DNA of 64,000 bases from an uncultured Alcanivorax sp. (GTDB taxonomy: Bacteria; Pseudomonadota; Gammaproteobacteria; Pseudomonadales; Alcanivoracaceae), in contig NZ_CAMYIV010000010.1 of NCBI RefSeq assembly GCF_947258575.1, positions 62,001 to 126,000 of the forward strand, read 5' to 3'. Within the stretch, counting starts at the first letter, position 1. Each line of letters begins with the position of its first letter. The position numbers were made by a program, and so were the translations under genes. This document shows positions 46,852 through 64,000 of this stretch, one piece after another. The notes under the pieces are model-generated. The model was not told the DNA's origin. It worked only from the letters and a program-made list of their open reading frames with translations, and did no database searches.

Positions 46852-48923
46852 TGTCCCGGGATTTGCTGATTGAACTGGGCACCGAAGAACTGCCCCCCAA
46901 GGCGCTGCCCACTCTGAGTGCGGCGCTGACGGAAGAATTTGTTCGCCAACTGGATGAAGCCGGCCTCAACCACGGTGAGGTAGAAAGCTTTGCCGCCCCG
47001 CGCCGTCTGGCTGTGCTGGTGCGAGGTCTGGATGACAAGCAGGCCGATCGGGATATCGAACGCCAGGGCCCGGCCGTGCAGGCCGCCTTCGACAAGGACG
47101 GTAACCCCACCAAGGCCGCGCAAGGGTTTGCGTCCTCTCTGGGATTAACCGTGGACCAGCTGGGTCGTCAGGACACCGGCAAAGGGGAGCGCCTGGTGGC
47201 GCAGATCACCGAGAAGGGCAAACCCGCCGCTGAATTGATTCCCGACTTCTTTGCCCAGGCGGTACAGAAGCTGCCGATCCCCAAGCGCATGCGCTGGGGC
47301 AAACGCAAGGTCCAGTTCGTGCGCCCGGCGCACTGGCTGGTGGCCCTGTTCGGTGATGAGGTGGTGCCCTTCGAGCTGCTGGATCTGCACGCCGGGCGCA
47401 CCAGTTACGGCCACCGTTTCCATGCCCCCGGCGCCATCGAGCTGGCTACCGCCAGCGACTACGCCGAGCGCATGGAAAAAGACGGTCATGTGATCGCCGA
47501 CTTCGCTCGCCGCAAGGCGATGATTGAAGAACAGGCCATCGCCGCCGGCAAGGAAGCCGGTGGTACCGCGCAGATCGACCCGGATCTGCTCAATGAAGTC
47601 ACCGCCCTGGTGGAATGGCCACTGGCGCTGATGGGTAGCTTCGACGACGACTTCCTGCGCGTGCCCCAGGAAGCACTGATCAGCGCCATGGAAGAGCACC
47701 AGAAATATTTCTCGGTGCTCGATGCCAACGGCAAGCTGATGCCGCGCTTCATCACCATCAGCAATATCCAGTCCAAGGATCCCCAGCAGGTGATCCACGG
47801 CAACGAGAAGGTGATTCGCCCGCGCCTGGCGGATGCGGCCTTCTTCTACGACAACGACTGCAAGAAGACCCTGGCCCAGCACGGCAAGGGGCTGGCCAAT
47901 GTGGTATTCCAGCAACAGCTGGGCACCGTGGCTGACAAGTGCGCACGTATTGGCGCACTGGCCGCCATTATCGCCGAGCAAATCGGAGGCGATGCCGAAC
48001 AGGCCAAGCTGGCTGGTGAGCTGAGCAAGGCGGACCTGAACAGCGAAATGGTCGGTGAGTTCGACACCATGCAGGGCATCATGGGTTTCTATCTGGCGCG
48101 CCTGGAAGGCCAGCCGGAGGAAGTGGCCCAGGCCCTGTACGAGCAGTACCTGCCGCGTTTCGCCGGCGACAAGCTGCCGCAGAGCAAGACCGGTATGGCC
48201 GTGTCCCTGGCCGACAAGATCGATACCCTGGTGGGCATCTTCGGCATCGGCCAGAAGCCCAGCGGTACCAAGGACCCCTACGCCCTGCGTCGGGCTACCC
48301 TGGGTGTGCTGCGTATCATCATCGAAAACCAGCTGGATGTGGACCTTCACCATCTGCTGGAAAAAGCCGGTGATCAGCTGGAGCTGCGTATCAACCGCGC
48401 CGAGGCTGCGGAAGCCTTCGAGTTCATCAAGGGTCGCTACCGGGCCATCTACCAGGAGCAGGGCATTGCTACACCGGTGATCCTGTCGGTACTGGCCATC
48501 GACGATGCCTGTCGCAAGCCGCTGGATTTCGACCGCCGGGTGAAAGCCGTGGCCGCCTTCCAGCCTCGGGAAGAAGCCCAGGCCCTGGCCGCCGCCAACA
48601 AGCGGGTGTCCAATATCCTCGCCAAGCTGGATCAGGCACCGCCGGAGGAAATCGATGGGGCTCTGCTGGAAGACGAGGCCGAGCAGACCCTCACCGATCT
48701 GGTGGTGGCCAGCTACGAGCAGTCCGAACCGCTGCTTGAGAAAGGGGACTATCAAGGCGTGCTGGAAATGCTGGCTGAGCTGCGCGAGCCGGTGGATGCC
48801 TTCTTCGACACCGTCATGGTAATGGCGGACGACGAGGCCGTGCGCAACAACCGCCTGGCCCTGCTGGCCTTCCTGCGCGACCTGTTCCTGAATGTGGCGG
48901 ATATCAGTCTGCTGCAGGAATGA
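46851..48923 (+). CDS. glyS: Glycine--tRNA ligase beta subunit
   Basis: The 690-residue beta subunit supplies tRNA binding. The N-terminus LLIELGTEELPPKALPTL, the internal RMRWGKRKVQFVRPAHWLVA and the HD-type and anticodon-binding C-terminal regions (FFDTVMVMADDEAVRNNRLA) are typical. Translation is coupled to glyQ by a one-base overlap. A strong terminator follows. Confidence 0.97.
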   Translation: MSRDLLIELGTEELPPKALPTLSAALTEEFVRQLDEAGLNHGEVESFAAPRRLAVLVRGLDDKQADRDIERQGPAVQAAFDKDGNPTKAAQGFASSLGLTVDQLGRQDTGKGERLVAQITEKGKPAAELIPDFFAQAVQKLPIPKRMRWGKRKVQFVRPAHWLVALFGDEVVPFELLDLHAGRTSYGHRFHAPGAIELATASDYAERMEKDGHVIADFARRKAMIEEQAIAAGKEAGGTAQIDPDLLNEVTALVEWPLALMGSFDDDFLRVPQEALISAMEEHQKYFSVLDANGKLMPRFITISNIQSKDPQQVIHGNEKVIRPRLADAAFFYDNDCKKTLAQHGKGLANVVFQQQLGTVADKCARIGALAAIIAEQIGGDAEQAKLAGELSKADLNSEMVGEFDTMQGIMGFYLARLEGQPEEVAQALYEQYLPRFAGDKLPQSKTGMAVSLADKIDTLVGIFGIGQKPSGTKDPYALRRATLGVLRIIIENQLDVDLHHLLEKAGDQLELRINRAEAAEAFEFIKGRYRAIYQEQGIATPVILSVLAIDDACRKPLDFDRRVKAVAAFQPREEAQALAAANKRVSNILAKLDQAPPEEIDGALLEDEAEQTLTDLVVASYEQSEPLLEKGDYQGVLEMLAELREPVDAFFDTVMVMADDEAVRNNRLALLAFLRDLFLNVADISLLQE

Positions 48924-48954
48924 CGAACAGCTAGACGCAACACGAGAAAAAACG

Positions 48955-48980
48955 AGGCCGCTTCCAAGCGGCCTTTGTTT
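48955..48980 (+). terminator. Terminator of glyQS
   Basis: AGGCCGCTT (48955-48963) pairs with AAGCGGCCT (48966-48974) and is followed by TTGTTTA. Confidence 0.8.
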
Positions 48981-49040
48981 ATCCCGTAGGCGCGTCGCTG
49001 GCGGCACGATACCGGTTGCTTCTTGGTAATCTGTAACCCT

Positions 49041-49065
49041 CTCGCCATGCAAGCATGGCTCCTAC
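49041..49065. repeat. Solitary REP, GTAGGAGC class
   Basis: CTCGCCATGCAAGCATGGCT begins a copy that matches one arm of the REPIN at 32456-32521; a weak partner (CCCGTAGGCGCGTC) lies near 48984. It ends 30 bases before gmhB. Confidence 0.65.
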
Positions 49066-51470: not shown

Positions 51471-53897
<2,427 letters not shown>

Positions 53898-55007
53898 TTA
53901 TTCACTCCCGGTGAGGGGCCGAAGTTGGCCATGTTCCACGTGGAACATTTTGCTCTCGATCGCCCGTAACGCTTTATTCTGCTGCACCACAGCCTCCCAT
54001 TGGGGCTGATCCAGTGCGGTAATCAGGGTCTGGTGGCCAGTGGAAGCCAGATACCCCAGCATCTGATTACGGTGTTCTTCGTCCAGCTCAGCAGCCAGAT
54101 CATCCACCAGCAGGGTACAAACTTTCCCTGCCTGACTGATCAACGGCAACTGAGCCAGCACCAGACCATAGGCAACCAGCTTGGCCTGGCCCCGGGAAAG
54201 GCGATCTCGCGCCACCACTCCCCGGGTTTCGATACGAATATCGCTGCGGTGATACCCTGCCTGACTGAACCCACGTCGGATATCATCAGGACGGAGGCGA
54301 GCCAGGGCATCCTCATAGCTCTCGTCTTTTTGTAGTCCCGTCTGTAGATGCACCCGGATTTTCAACTCCGGTGCCAGATGAGACAACACCGTATCCAGCC
54401 CTGACTGCAGGGCTTGCAGATAGCTACGACGCAACCCTTCGATTCTATCAGAAGTCTGCGCCAGTTGCTGGTCCCAAAACCCCAGTTCACGGGGGTTCGG
54501 ACGCCCGGTGCGGAGCAGGGCGTTCCGTTGCTTCAGGGCCGCGGACGCGGTGCGCCATACCGGCATAAATTCATGTTCCACGTGGAACATTCCCCAGTCC
54601 ATAAACCGCCGGCGCAGGGCTGAGGCCCCGAACACCAGCTCCACCGACGTGGGGTGCAGGGCCAGAACAGGGAGAAGACCAGCCACCTCGCTCAACGCCC
54701 TGGGGGTTTCCCCATTTAGCTTGATGGCATCAATCCCCCCCGGGTTACGGCGCACCCCCAGCCGGTGGCTCTTTTCGCCCACCTCTACTTCGGCATACAG
54801 GGTTGCCGCGGAGGCACCGTCGCGAACCAGCCGCGACAGTCTGCCACCACGAAACGAGCGCCCCCCGCTGCCAATGAAATAGATGGCCTCCAGCAGGCTG
54901 GTCTTGCCGCTGCCGTTGTCACCAAGAATCACATTAAGGGAAGGGGAGAGGGCAATATCCAGCTGACGGTAATTGCGAAAATCTCCGAGCTGGAGACGAC
55001 TCAACAT
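53898..55007 (-). CDS. recF: DNA replication and repair protein RecF
   Basis: RecF helps load RecA at gaps. The 369-residue protein has the Walker A motif GDNGSGKTSLLEA (about residues 30-42), the ABC signature region LSRGQAKLVAYGL and Walker B CTLLVDDLAAELDE. The start at 55007 (MLSRLQLGDFRNYR) is standard. Two perfect parS-type palindromes are in its reading frame and both encode MFHVEH: one mid-gene (54573-54590) and one in a C-terminal extension (53931-53948). The extension beyond the usual end is therefore partly shaped by a DNA signal. Confidence 0.96.
   Translation of the reverse strand: MLSRLQLGDFRNYRQLDIALSPSLNVILGDNGSGKTSLLEAIYFIGSGGRSFRGGRLSRLVRDGASAATLYAEVEVGEKSHRLGVRRNPGGIDAIKLNGETPRALSEVAGLLPVLALHPTSVELVFGASALRRRFMDWGMFHVEHEFMPVWRTASAALKQRNALLRTGRPNPRELGFWDQQLAQTSDRIEGLRRSYLQALQSGLDTVLSHLAPELKIRVHLQTGLQKDESYEDALARLRPDDIRRGFSQAGYHRSDIRIETRGVVARDRLSRGQAKLVAYGLVLAQLPLISQAGKVCTLLVDDLAAELDEEHRNQMLGYLASTGHQTLITALDQPQWEAVVQQNKALRAIESKMFHVEHGQLRPLTGSE
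53931..53948. promoter_or_regulatory. parS centromere site 1 (inside recF)
   Basis: ATGTTCCACGTGGAACAT is a perfect 18-bp palindrome containing the parS consensus TGTTCCACGTGGAACA bound by ParB. It is about 4.3 kb from the oriC core, as expected for origin-proximal parS clusters. Confidence 0.92.
54573..54590. promoter_or_regulatory. parS centromere site 2 (inside recF)
   Basis: It is identical to site 1 over 18 bases and lies in the same reading frame of recF, 642 bases away. Paired parS sites allow ParB spreading near the origin. Confidence 0.92.
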
Positions 55008-55301: not shown

Positions 55302-56402
55302 TCACAGCCGCATGGGCATGACCACATACAGGGCCGCTTTGCTCTCCGGGTCCAGCACCAGGGCGCTGCTGTTGCTGTCACCCATTTCCAGCTCCGCCTG
55401 AGTGCCGGCCATGGTGTTGAGCACATCCAGCAGGTAGCTCACGTTGAAGCCGATCTCCAGGGGCTGACCATTGAAATCCACGGATACTTCTTCTTCCGCT
55501 TCTTCCTGCTCCGGGTTGTTGGCTACGATACGCAGGCTGCCTTCAGACAGCTGCACCCGCACACCCCGGTATTTTTCATTGGACAGGATCGCCACCCGAG
55601 CCAGAGCCTGGCGCAGGGTTTCCCGGTCGGCGATGATGGTGCGCGAGCCTTCCTTGGGAATCACCCGGTCATACTCGGGGAACTTGCCATCGACCAACTT
55701 GGAGGTGAACGTAATCGCCCCCACCACAATACGGACATGATTGCGGCCCACGGTCAGGCGGGCATTTTCGCCAGCATCACCCAGGATGCGGGACAGCTCC
55801 ATCACCCCTTTACGCGGCAGGATCACCGACGCTTCTTCCACCGGCACATCCAGCTCCGCATCGCACAGGGCAAGGCGGTGACCATCGGTAGCCACGGCGC
55901 GCAGACGGCCTGGCTTGAGCTCGAACAACATGCCGTTGAGGTAATAGCGCACGTCCTGCTGGGCCATGGAAAACGCAGTACGATCGATCAGGCTGCGCAA
56001 CACGCCTGGCTGGATATCCAGACTGGAGCCGGCAGCATCTTCTTCCAGATTGGGAAACTCGGACGCGGGCAGGGTGGAGAGGGTGAAACGGCTGCGACCG
56101 GAACGAACCAGCATGCGCTCGCCATCCACCTCGAAACGGATGTCGGCTTCCGCCGGCAGGCTCTTGGCAATGTCCACCAGCTTGCGGGCCGGCACCGTGG
56201 TTTCCCCAGCCTGATGCTCCCCCTCCAGGGGCAGGCGAGCCACCAGCTCCAGCTCCAGATCGGTGCCTGTCATGGAAAGCTGACCATCTCCCACTTCCAG
56301 CAGGACATTGGACAGCACCGGCAAGGTTTGCCGTTTTTCCACCACTGCAGCCACCTGTTGCAGGGGCTTGAGCAGTTGTTCTCTATTGATTGAGAATTTC
56401 AT
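55302..56402 (-). CDS. dnaN: DNA polymerase III beta subunit (sliding clamp)
   Basis: DnaN encircles DNA and tethers polymerase III. The 366-residue protein has the three-domain clamp layout. It starts MKFSINREQLLKPLQQVAAV, has the central VATDGHRLALCDAEL motif and ends in the conserved VVMPMRL. It lies 95 bases after dnaA. Confidence 0.98.
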   Translation of the reverse strand: MKFSINREQLLKPLQQVAAVVEKRQTLPVLSNVLLEVGDGQLSMTGTDLELELVARLPLEGEHQAGETTVPARKLVDIAKSLPAEADIRFEVDGERMLVRSGRSRFTLSTLPASEFPNLEEDAAGSSLDIQPGVLRSLIDRTAFSMAQQDVRYYLNGMLFELKPGRLRAVATDGHRLALCDAELDVPVEEASVILPRKGVMELSRILGDAGENARLTVGRNHVRIVVGAITFTSKLVDGKFPEYDRVIPKEGSRTIIADRETLRQALARVAILSNEKYRGVRVQLSEGSLRIVANNPEQEEAEEEVSVDFNGQPLEIGFNVSYLLDVLNTMAGTQAELEMGDSNSSALVLDPESKAALYVVMPMRL

Positions 56403-57913: not shown

Positions 57914-58107
57914 GCCTTATTATCCTGGAACGATACCGTCCTTTCCTCTTCCACTGAGACGGGAAGAGGAAGAACACAGGGCCCGACCGCGACAGAAATC
58001 ACAGTCCAGCGGCACTCTTGAGCCCTGAATCGTCTTTTATGAACTGAATGAAAATTCGGTCAATGAACCGGAATCGAGCCCGTCATTCTACCCCCTCCGA
58101 GCGATAA

Positions 58108-58116
58108 CTATCCACA
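58108..58116 (+). promoter_or_regulatory. DnaA box, one mismatch
   Basis: CTATCCACA differs from TTATCCACA at the first base. Confidence 0.65.
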
Positions 58117-58146
58117 GGGCAGTCAGGATTTTTCCGGCTTTATTTC

Positions 58147-58155
58147 TGTGGATAA
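58147..58155 (-). promoter_or_regulatory. DnaA box, perfect
   Basis: TGTGGATAA on the plus strand is the complement of the consensus TTATCCACA. Confidence 0.85.
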
Positions 58156-58327
58156 CTAGGGCCATAACCCTGTGCGGGAATGCAGGTACAACCCGGTGGA
58201 CAATTGGAGGGACAACTTATACCCACATTTAATGACAGGTCGTCCCCCGCTCGTCCCCAGTACTTACACACAATGGTACGCAAGTTATCAACGACGCAAA
58301 CTAATGATATAAATAGCCTTTTCGCGC

Positions 58328-58336
58328 TTATCCACA
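58328..58336 (+). promoter_or_regulatory. DnaA box, perfect, next to the AT-rich tract
   Basis: TTATCCACA sits 14 bases before the AT-rich tract at 58351, the position expected for a box that feeds DnaA onto the unwinding element. Confidence 0.88.
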
Positions 58337-58350
58337 AAAAGTGCCTTCCC

Positions 58351-58405
58351 CTATAATAACTACTACTACTAAAAAACATTTAAATATTTAAGTTCTATTA
58401 ACAGT
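58351..58405. other. Putative DNA-unwinding element
   Basis: This is the most AT-rich stretch in the origin region and contains three-base TAC repeats like the DnaA-trio motifs described next to bacterial DnaA boxes. Assignment as the unwinding site is inferred from position and composition. Confidence 0.65.
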
Positions 58406-58442
58406 TCTCTCCAGCAGGTCTTGAACTTGTCTGAAAAGCCGA

Positions 58443-58471
58443 TTGACAGGGGATTTCGCTTTCCCTAGACT
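58443..58471 (+). promoter_or_regulatory. rpmH: Promoter of rpmH
   Basis: A consensus -35 (TTGACA, 58443-58448) and TAGACT (58466-58471) are spaced by 17 bases, 44 bases before the rpmH start. Confidence 0.75.
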
Positions 58472-58514
58472 TGCCGGCCTTCCAATTGCTGTCTCATTCC
58501 ATGGGGAAGACACC

Positions 58515-58649
58515 ATGAAACGCACATTTCAGCCCAGCGTACTCAAGCGCAAACGTGCCCACGGTTTCCGTGCTCGCATGGCGACCAAAAACGGTCGCAA
58601 AATCCTGGCCGCTCGTCGTGCCAAGGGTCGTAAGCGGTTGGCTGCCTGA
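58515..58649 (+). CDS. rpmH: 50S ribosomal protein L34
   Basis: The 44-residue protein [20 protein letters not shown]... is the standard bacterial L34, highly basic and ending in KRLAA. The ATG at 58515 gives exactly the family length. It is first in the rpmH-rnpA-yidC cluster beside the origin. Confidence 0.98.
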
Positions 58650-60926: not shown

Positions 60927-62309
60927 ATGTCGAATACTGCCCAGGACACCATTGTTGCGATTGCCACTGCGCCCGGCCGGGGTGGGGTTGGCGTGGTGCG
61001 TCTGTCAGGGCCTAACGCCGAAAACATCGCAGGCAACATTGTTGGTGGTCGCACACTGACGCCGCGAATGGCGCATTTCGCCAAATTCAGGGATGGCAAG
61101 GGCGACGTTATTGATGAAGGACTGGTGATTGCCTTTCCCGCCCCTCATTCCTTTACCGGCGAAGATGTGGTGGAGCTACAGGGCCACGGCGGCCCGGTGA
61201 TCCTGGATATGCTGGTGGCTGCCTGCATTGCCGCCGGCGCCCGCCAGGCCCGGGCCGGGGAGTTTTCCCAGCGGGCATTCCTTAACGACAAGATGGATCT
61301 GACCCAGGCCGAGGCCATTGCGGACCTGATTGACGCGGGCACCAGCGCCTCTGCGCGGGCTGCTCTGCATTCCCTTCAAGGGGTATTCTCTGACCAGGTG
61401 AATCGTCTGGTGGAGGCATTGATCGGATTGCGCATCTATGTAGAAGCAGCAATCGACTTCCCGGAGGAGGAGATCGACTTTCTTTCCGATGGCAAGGTGG
61501 CTGGCGATCTGCATGACGTGCGCGAGCAGTGCCTGCGGGTGCTGGAGGAGGCCAACCAGGGCCGCCTGGTCCGGGAAGGCATGACCCTGGTGATCGCCGG
61601 CAAACCCAACGCCGGCAAGTCTTCCCTGATGAATGCCCTGGCCGGTTTCGATGCTGCCATCGTCACGGATATCGCCGGCACCACCCGGGATGTGCTGCGC
61701 GAATCTATCCAGCTCGATGGCATGCCGCTTAACCTGATCGACACCGCCGGCCTGCGTGACAGCGCTGACGTGGTGGAGCAGGAAGGGATTCGCCGCGCCT
61801 ACGCGGAAATGAGAAAAGCGGACCGTTTGCTGGTCATGGTGGATTCCCGCGAGGGTGAAGTTAATCCACAAGATATCCACAGCTTGCTGCCGCAGAGTCA
61901 GCAACAACTGGAGAATCTGGATCTGCCGGTTACCGTGGTGCTCAACAAGGCCGATTTGTCCGGCATGGCCACCGGCCCCCGTGATGACGGCAGCTTCGTG
62001 ATCTCTGCCACCACCGCTGAAGGGCTCTCTGATCTGCGCGATCACCTGAAAGACGCTGCGGGGTTTAAAGGGATGGGCCAGGGCGAAGGGCAGAGCCGCT
62101 TCTCCGCCCGCCGCCGCCACATCACTGCCCTGGAGCAGGCCCTGGCCGCCCTGGACAAGGGCGAGCAGCAATTGCACGGTCACGCTGCTGGCGAATTGCT
62201 GGCAGAAGACCTGCGCGCCGCCCAGAAAGCCCTGGAAGAAATCACCGGTGCCTTTACTGCCGATGATCTGCTGGGGCGTATTTTTTCCTCCTTCTGTATT
62301 GGTAAATAA
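60927..62309 (+). CDS. mnmE: tRNA modification GTPase MnmE
   Basis: MnmE, with MnmG, modifies the wobble uridine of certain tRNAs. The 460-residue protein has the N-terminal folate-binding domain ([21 protein letters not shown]), the G1 motif [15 protein letters not shown]3 DTAGLRD and NKAD, and ends with the catalytic FCIGK. The ATG at 60927 is chosen over 60882 because the upstream codons overlap the yidC terminator. mnmG does not follow directly. Confidence 0.96.
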
Positions 62310-62589
62310 AAGAGCGCTATCTCTGCCATGGAGTCAGGCGCAGTGCTCTCCGCCTACAATAGTTACCCACAGCCTTTCTGGTTGACCCAATATCCTCCAT
62401 TTCTGACCAAACCGCTCATCGCATAAAAAAGCGGCGAAGCCCTTTCAAATCAAAAGCCTACCTGTACGGTAAACACATTGTTTTATTTTGAGCATTGAGT
62501 TGCATATTGGTTGCGTTAGTTTCGTATGACCGAGCAGTCACAAAAATGAATGGCTGTACATAAAACAATAACAACGCAATGAGGTGAGC
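62310..62589. other. Intergenic region between mnmE and the surface-protein gene
   Basis: No gene is evident in these 280 bases. They are more AT-rich than the flanks and contain TTGTTTTAT at about 62478 and its complement ATAAAACAA at about 62562, a possible weak dyad before the next gene. Confidence 0.5.
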
Positions 62590-64000
62590 ATGCTCACCAG
62601 ACTCAATGACAGAACCTGCATCAGGTTATCCCGTGTTTTGATGGTTGTGCTCGCGGCTGCCCCGATGCCAGGGATGTCTGCACTGCAATCCCTGGATGAA
62701 GAAAGCCTGTCTCAGGTGACCGGCACCGGGCTGGCTATCGGCTTTGAGGATTTCCGCTGGCTGATCAAGCCCACCAGTTATTTCGAGCAGGTGGGGTCAG
62801 ATCCGGTAGGCAGCACCACGCTGCAACGGGGGGATCTGCGCTGGTATGGCGTGAACATTTCCGGTGCGGGTACCGGTGGATTTCACTGGGATGAAACTGG
62901 CGGCAATTTCGGCACGTCCTGTGATGCCTCAAGCCTCGGCTGCCCCAGAGGAGGGTTAATCAGTGACTTTGCACCCCATGATAACCCTTACCTGTTACGC
63001 GCATTTTCACCCAGGGGAGTCAGCTACGATGGCAACGTCCTCAACAGTGATCCCAATAACCCGGACAGCACCATCTATGAATATCTGGCGCCCAGTGCCC
63101 AGCCGGATTACACCTTTTCCTTCTGGGGAGAACTGGAAGTAGGTCGCTCCGGCAATAATGACAACCTGGCCGTGGGTACCGGGGATTTGTTGAAAACCCA
63201 GACCATCATTCGCGGTAATGCGGCCAATTCAGCCTTCCGTCTTTTCCAGTTTACCCAACCGGGTAACGAAACCTTCGCCATCCTTTACCACAGTCGCCTG
63301 CAGGGAGACTTCCGGTTTTCTGCGGCACAGCATGATGGTCCGGGCGCTAGCGATGTGGTGGGGCAACCGGTCAGGTTTGATGCCCTTGAAGGTCTGCATT
63401 TCAAAAATGTGGATGCCTATGTTCCGCTGGGACAGCTTTACTATCAGGCGCTGACCCTGGATACGGTGCCGTCCCAGGATGGGAATTTCATTCTGGAAAT
63501 TCCCCGTCTTCCCGATGTTCCTACCCATACAGCGGTTCATGATCATTTCTATTCTCTGGCAGTACCGGACAGTGCCGATGCCGGCTATATCACTGCCCGG
63601 GCAGCGTTATTGAGCAATACGCCTGGCGCAACGCCTTCTCATGCGGTGGATGATTCGTATTTTGTCACCCATGGCTATTCACGTTGGGGAGACTGGTATC
63701 CCTGTCGAGGGGTTGGATGTCCACCGATATCGACAACGGTTACTCCCAATCGCAATGCCTATAACGACACCGATGACGGCATCTTCTTTCGCAAGTGTGA
63801 AAGCTGTGATGACTTCGATGCGTTCGCTTACATGATCACGGCGGTGGATGTTCGGCCTGGACAGGATCAGTACTCCTGCCCGGGGGGAAGTAATTGTGGT
63901 GATTATGCCCCGCGTGGAGGCACCGGAAGTGTTGCGGATCGCTACTATCGTCAGGCGGTTAATTGTACCGCCAATAACGGGAGTGATTACCAGTGTGGCT
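62590..64000 (+). CDS. Large secreted or surface protein of unknown function, 5' part
   Basis: An uninterrupted frame of 470 codons runs from the ATG at 62590, with GAGGTGAG as ribosome binding site, to the window edge. The N-terminus has a signal peptide (LMVVLAAAPMPGMSA), followed by LQSLDEESLSQVTGTGLAIG, a pattern also seen at the start of secreted proteins in Acinetobacter and Pseudomonas. The visible mature part is rich in Gly, Asp, Asn and aromatic residues with several Cys pairs (for example CRGVGCPP), suggesting an extracellular beta-rich protein. It is not mnmG, which often follows mnmE. The stop is outside the window. Confidence 0.75.
   Translation, partial: MLTRLNDRTCIRLSRVLMVVLAAAPMPGMSALQSLDEESLSQVTGTGLAIGFEDFRWLIKPTSYFEQVGSDPVGSTTLQRGDLRWYGVNISGAGTGGFHWDETGGNFGTSCDASSLGCPRGGLISDFAPHDNPYLLRAFSPRGVSYDGNVLNSDPNNPDSTIYEYLAPSAQPDYTFSFWGELEVGRSGNNDNLAVGTGDLLKTQTIIRGNAANSAFRLFQFTQPGNETFAILYHSRLQGDFRFSAAQHDGPGASDVVGQPVRFDALEGLHFKNVDAYVPLGQLYYQALTLDTVPSQDGNFILEIPRLPDVPTHTAVHDHFYSLAVPDSADAGYITARAALLSNTPGATPSHAVDDSYFVTHGYSRWGDWYPCRGVGCPPISTTVTPNRNAYNDTDDGIFFRKCESCDDFDAFAYMITAVDVRPGQDQYSCPGGSNCGDYAPRGGTGSVADRYYRQAVNCTANNGSDYQCG

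Follow-up and report, generated by a model that had tools for sequence, protein, structure and literature searches.

In P. aeruginosa, the parS1 and parS2 sites lie inside recF (PMC3909081, PMC5521831), and ParB ChIP-seq detected binding of the protein at parS1-4 (PMC5098823). There, parS is described as needed for segregation and bound by ParB in vivo (PMC5098823, PMC4368675). Nine of the ten putative parS sites of this bacterium are reported to lie in coding sequence, and coding-sequence sites were mutated there without any change in the protein (PMC4368675); parS3 is called intergenic in another report (PMC5521831). Genes around parS1-4 are expressed less under an excess of ParB; in the case of the dnaA-dnaN-recF-gyrB operon, this was ascribed to parS1 and parS2 within recF (PMC5521831). 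Since parS1 and parS2 of P. aeruginosa are in recF, the arrangement that we describe here is of a known type. In the literature searched, we found no report of its conservation across the class, of the recF pair as the sole exact pair of a genome, or of evidence for dual coding; the comparative parS survey by Livny and colleagues (2007) may already list recF sites from further species.

The window that we analysed is a stretch of 64,000 nucleotides from an uncultured Alcanivorax sp. Its recF gene contains two identical copies of ATGTTCCACGTGGAACAT, each a perfect 18-bp palindrome, which are in frame and separated by 642 bp, i.e. 214 codons. The first-pass annotation had claimed both this arrangement and the reading of each copy as MFHVEH; we observed an exact match at both positions (Table 1) and the same hexapeptide twice in the translation. 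When the window was scanned for ATGTTCCACGTGGAACAT with up to 3 mismatches, these two sites alone were found. In dinucleotide shuffles of the window (n=100), the mean number of matches was 0.04 and two matches never occurred (0/100); on these grounds we rejected a chance origin of the pair. In addition, each site has 0 mismatches to the 16-bp palindrome TGTTYCACGTGRAACA. The assembly comprises 3.5 Mb in 13 contigs and is 97% complete; in it, the relaxed parS pattern TNTTNCACGTGNAANA matches the recF pair and nothing elsewhere, away from the origin, and the reversed control gives 0 matches. A scan of the assembly with TGTTCCACGTGGAACA and up to 2 mismatches listed the same two places, but the reversed control also gave 2 at this loose setting, so that the weight lies on the exactness of the match.

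Table 1. Position of the two palindromes and of the surrounding genes in the window
Feature	Coordinates	Strand	Description
gyrB	51471..53888	-	PRK14939 / TIGR01059; downstream neighbour of recF, 9-bp gap
recF	53898..55007	-	369 aa; TIGR00611 E=1.3e-95; carries both sites
parS site 2	53931..53948	.	identical palindrome; recF codons 354-359 = MFHVEH, 10 residues before end
parS site 1	54573..54590	.	perfect 18-bp palindrome; recF codons 140-145 = MFHVEH, after DWG
dnaN	55302..56402	-	named by position and order; dnaA-dnaN-recF-gyrB order same in E. coli
dnaA	56498..57913	-	TIGR00362 E=6.4e-183
probable oriC interval	57914..58600	.	inferred: upstream of dnaA, DnaA boxes matched exactly at 58147 and 58328

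As in P. aeruginosa, the pair is in recF at about 4 kb from the origin, here a probable oriC deduced from DnaA boxes and dnaA, and the sites parS1 (TGTTCCACGTGGAACC) and parS2 (TGTTCCACGTGGAACA) of that bacterium are of the same type as ours. The window has six exact DnaA-box matches, four of which are outside the probable oriC interval. RecF itself is 98% identical to that of Alcanivorax jadensis, which places the window in Alcanivorax or close to this genus. Unlike P. aeruginosa, which has the additional ParB-bound sites parS3 and parS4 near oriC and further putative ones, the source genome has the recF pair only. Other intragenic parS sites of ParABS systems are likewise 16-bp palindromes read by the CTPase ParB; here, in contrast, two sites lie in one gene and are conserved in frame across most families of the class that we examined.

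The source genome encodes a single ParB (C10:154439), which exceeds the curated cut-off of TIGR00180 (E=1.9e-60) and carries GERRWRA. Ahead of parB we read by eye a rsmG-like frame and a ParA-like frame with the motif KGGVGKTT (L003). The sequence of the palindromes, their location and the presence of ParB thus support the identification as parS made in the first-pass annotation. We conclude that the two palindromes are very probably the chromosomal parS centromere of the source bacterium. Some 34 kb separate parB from the probable oriC, on the opposite side of which the pair is located, whereas parAB of P. aeruginosa is at about 7 kb from it (PMC3909081). This distance results from some 26 kb of other genes between mnmE and mnmG-rsmG-parAB, among them an AMP-binding enzyme, an AcrB-type transporter, a wax ester synthase and a Na/H exchanger; these genes span 62309-64000 of the window and continues to about 154 kb of C10 (L281). 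Elsewhere in the window, we noted two long frames that are most likely by-products of codon composition: one of 711 aa at 51732-53867 (+), antisense to gyrB, and one of 635 aa at 47145-49052 (-), antisense to a gene which we take to be glyS-like.

We then compared recF genes from two sets of genomes, the source genome being in both. RecF was matched in 34 of 37 relatives and in 197 of 229 genomes sampled across the class. Among the relatives, 33 genes were examined (own included) and one broken match (G036) was left out; in the class sample, the 149 examined are the stronger RecF matches among the 197, which may introduce a bias, and kinship is handled by even sampling only. Both sites are within 2 mismatches of TGTTYCACGTGRAACA in 33/33 near relatives and in 118 of the 149 class genomes (own included), representing 94 of 117 families; at least one recF site is present in 110 of the 117. 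As the pair recurs in most of the related families checked, the same DNA is probably gene and centromere at once. Over 198 distinct gammaproteobacterial recF genes, the mismatch counts are bimodal, with 0-2 or mostly at least 5 and few between. Of the 161 recF genes having both sites, 160 have them 202-220 codons apart, as expected from the length of RecF. Two presumed Pseudomonas genomes, G315 and G319 (L066, L064), have sites at the same two positions, with the DWG motif and the C-terminal strand; the source recF has this Pseudomonas-type layout, its two in-frame sites following DWG and occupying the C-terminal strand, respectively. Sites limited to the genus of the window were considered and rejected, the pair being common across the class. 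Outside the class but within the phylum, recF was fetched from 28 of 90 genomes; none of these genes has a parS-like site, the best match anywhere in them having 4-7 mismatches.

The exact core GTTYCACGTGRAAC was also counted over the 229 class genomes: it is present in 196, of which 142 contain exactly two copies, for a total of 412 matches vs 9 with the reversed control. In the 149 genomes whose recF was examined, 245 of 302 matches are at the two recF positions, and 94 genomes have exactly two exact cores, both in recF. Twelve further matches are close by: 2 are inside recF but out of frame, and 10 are at most 240 bases beyond the end of the gene. Some genomes have lost the recF copies and carry the motif elsewhere, three times each in G089, G094 and G104 and twice each in G228 and G185. 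As recF is near a contig end in G130 (L048), G074 (L202), G069 (L163) and G098 (L149), a site may seem missing there for technical reasons; the second core of G130 is on another contig.

These numbers leave little room for the idea that both copies are non-functional relics or a chance duplication, which we consider hardly credible. A single parS is sufficient in P. aeruginosa (PMC4368675, PMC5098823), and a second copy could therefore be dispensable; both copies are nevertheless retained in 94/117 families, and shuffled sequence yields no pair. There are strong grounds for regarding the parS pair as functional.

Conservation of the palindromes could also come from the protein: the peptide MFHVEH would be selected in RecF and the DNA palindrome would be a by-product of two functional copies of this peptide. 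The codons speak against this. At site 1 and site 2, His is encoded by CAC in 131/136 and 126/130 cases (the same genes would predict about 57 and 55), Val by GTG in 127/130 and 126/131 (about 41 and 42 expected) and Glu by GAA in 115/118 and 105/106. The synonymous codons CAT and GTA/GTC/GTT are nearly absent at both sites. In addition, the silent third position of the Phe codon falls on base 5 of the palindrome, and the Glu (GAA) or Lys (AAA) codon starts at base 12; the two bases vary together. At site 1, the Glu:Lys ratio is 77:0 with TTC vs 36:18 with TTT (Fisher p=1.6e-8; kinship not removed), and at site 2 it is 63:8 vs 38:19 (Fisher p=0.004; kinship not removed); Lys is thus paired with TTT in 18/18 and 19/27 cases, respectively.

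The pattern of loss points in the same direction. In the 17 genomes whose site 1 is lost (at least 4 mismatches), HisVal is never kept (0/17) but Phe is kept in 16, and FHV[EK] is kept in 0/21 genomes that have lost site 2. The palindrome also occurs without the peptide: G077, G218 and G181 have no FHV at the C-terminus of RecF, but a perfect palindrome begins within about 30 bases past the recF stop, and G166, a genome without a ParB hit, carries the palindrome out of frame within recF. An additional copy at or just past the stop is present in seven genomes whose site 2 is intact. The proposal that MFHVEH occurs only with the palindrome consequently holds for the HisVal core at site 1 and for FHV[EK] at site 2, but not strictly: FHV[EK] is retained at ten sites although their core is one base off, and FHVE is found near the C-terminus in 2/28 RecF proteins from outside the class (L229, L231), which have no parS.

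Other observations also speak for a contribution of the protein. The RecF proteins of the other classes read DWxxF at site 1 in 12 of 28 cases and DRLxx in most others, and near the C-terminus 14/28 have F-x-V-x-x-G, again without parS. An intact site 2 is directly followed by Gly in 121/128 genomes, and the tail beyond it has a median length of 7 residues. Site 2 is therefore the usual last strand of RecF, and not a C-terminal extension as the first-pass annotation had stated. Moreover, TTC-with-Lys is rarer than TTT-with-Glu (8 vs 74, both sites summed); the protein thus carries some constraint, since a strand-symmetric DNA site alone would show no such difference. These features, together with the persistence of Phe after the loss of site 1 and the ten sites that retain FHV[EK], speak in favour of a peptide-driven conservation. 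Given the nearly fixed codons, the loss of HisVal with the palindrome and the displaced palindromes, we rejected it as the main cause and consider it very unlikely. The nearly fixed codons, the coupled Phe codon, the loss of HisVal and the displacement indicate, at the level of sequence, that selection acts on the DNA and not mainly on the peptide.

In the parS reading, selection for ParB binding would fix CAC GTG and the symmetric flanks in the DNA, and HisVal and Glu/Lys would thereby be dictated in RecF. RecF probably tolerates the palindromes because the overlaid positions are compatible with the protein, i.e. Phe after DWG at site 1 and F-x-V-x-x-G at site 2. The codon and loss data bear out the earlier proposal that this double duty constrains both the codons and the protein. 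In a structure model of RecF, of fair quality (mean pLDDT 70; block means of 55 and 49 around site 2), helix 141-166 begins at site 1 and strand 354-358 falls within site 2, which is suggestive of the same hexapeptide serving in two folds, a helix and a strand. The alignments to the solved RecF structures 8a8j, 5zwu, 5z67 and 2o5v end at residue 331-336, before site 2.

By analogy with P. aeruginosa and with general work on ParB, we infer that binding, clamp loading and segregation also take place in the source organism. ParB would load at both palindromes as a CTP-dependent clamp and slide across the dnaA-dnaN-recF-gyrB region, and ParA would then move the new origins apart.

We also compared the retention of the palindromes with the presence of ParB. 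No exact core was found genome-wide in 7/11 class genomes without a ParB hit vs 26/218 with a hit (p=1.5e-4), the seven including two very small genomes (0.3-0.4 Mb). The other four genomes without a hit (G166, G167, G251 and G253) keep two cores, and ParB is perhaps missing from their incomplete assemblies (77-96% complete). Among genomes whose recF was examined, the link to ParB is thin: both cores are lacking in 2/4 ParB-less vs 12/144 ParB-positive genomes of the class sample (p=0.045). The addition of selected extra genomes and of E. coli K-12 gives 6/8 vs 14/157 (p=4e-5), but this figure is inflated, since the site loss of three of the ParB-less additions had been seen before they were picked. 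From both recF-based comparisons we excluded G074, which has a weak ParB match and both sites intact, and G296 was counted as ParB-less, having only ParB matches under the cut-off. The ParB model also matches the E. coli control genome, and E. coli is therefore ParB-less by literature only: its chromosome is described as being without ParABS (PMC3909081, PMC7022226). Within one genus, G063 has a ParB hit and both sites, and G209 has no ParB hit and both sites mutated. On these small numbers, ParB-less genomes have thus mostly lost the sites. The ParB-positive genomes without an exact core at either recF site (12/144) or anywhere (26/218) show that neither the recF position nor the exact core is obligatory.

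The association with ParB also bears on whether another factor reads the palindromes, either a different CACGTG-binding regulator or an mRNA hairpin that would tune recF/gyrB. Both sites are within a transcribed operon, sites with T5/G12 would still be paired in RNA via wobble, and two cores persist in the four genomes without a ParB hit mentioned above; the lowered expression around parS1-4 of P. aeruginosa under ParB excess (PMC5521831) would fit a role in expression as well. Against this, the core is lacking more often when ParB is not detected, several genomes without the recF copies carry the motif elsewhere, and in P. aeruginosa the motif is bound by ParB itself (PMC5098823). We therefore consider such a factor very unlikely indeed, and keep ParB as the reader.

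E. coli RecF has GCFHNEPG and KMFTVEKG at the homologous positions, with SKMFTVEKGKITD in the C-terminal strand, but no palindromes, the mismatches being 6 at site 1 and 3 at site 2. We lean slightly towards the idea that the recF pair is the ancestral gammaproteobacterial centromere, that ParB-parS has dictated part of RecF since before the families split, and that FHNEP and MFTVEKG in E. coli-type RecF are the fossil remains of a centromere that disappeared together with ParABS. If the recF pair acts as parS, the whole recognisable centromere of many bacteria would sit in one conserved gene, and the evolution of a DNA-repair protein would be coupled to the DNA preference of ParB. The HisVal motif, which could be mistaken for functional residues of RecF, would be explained. 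The locus would also offer a clean natural case of dual coding, testable by synonymous recoding, and a rule for new gammaproteobacterial genomes, in which the centromere should be sought in recF first. The arrangement is documented in one well-studied species, and it is broader than the first-pass annotation had supposed.

Some genomes have variant cores. Both recF sites share the same departure in G060 (CACATG on the recF strand, L176), G216 (CATGTG, L205) and G202 (CACGTA, L153), and these three genomes have no other match to a pattern admitting the variants. It is as if the pair had drifted together in each of them; such alike changes are expected in the ancestral-centromere reading if the pair and ParB drift together. 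We compared by eye the DNA-reading region of ParB in ten genomes whose cores are canonical, lost or variant, and saw no one common substitution that would explain the variants. More generally, the two sites within a genome share their half-site type more often than expected (118 genomes; chi-square p=1.3e-6; kinship not removed). G042 (L208) has a CATGTG site in recF, a second one 3.5 kb away and a third match, of CATATG type, on another contig. We also noted that two parS cores are only 29-47 bp apart in G118, G192, G062, G179 and G104; the recF copies are lost in G104, and the other four are not among the recF genes examined. Finally, G153 has 12 exact parS cores vs the usual two.
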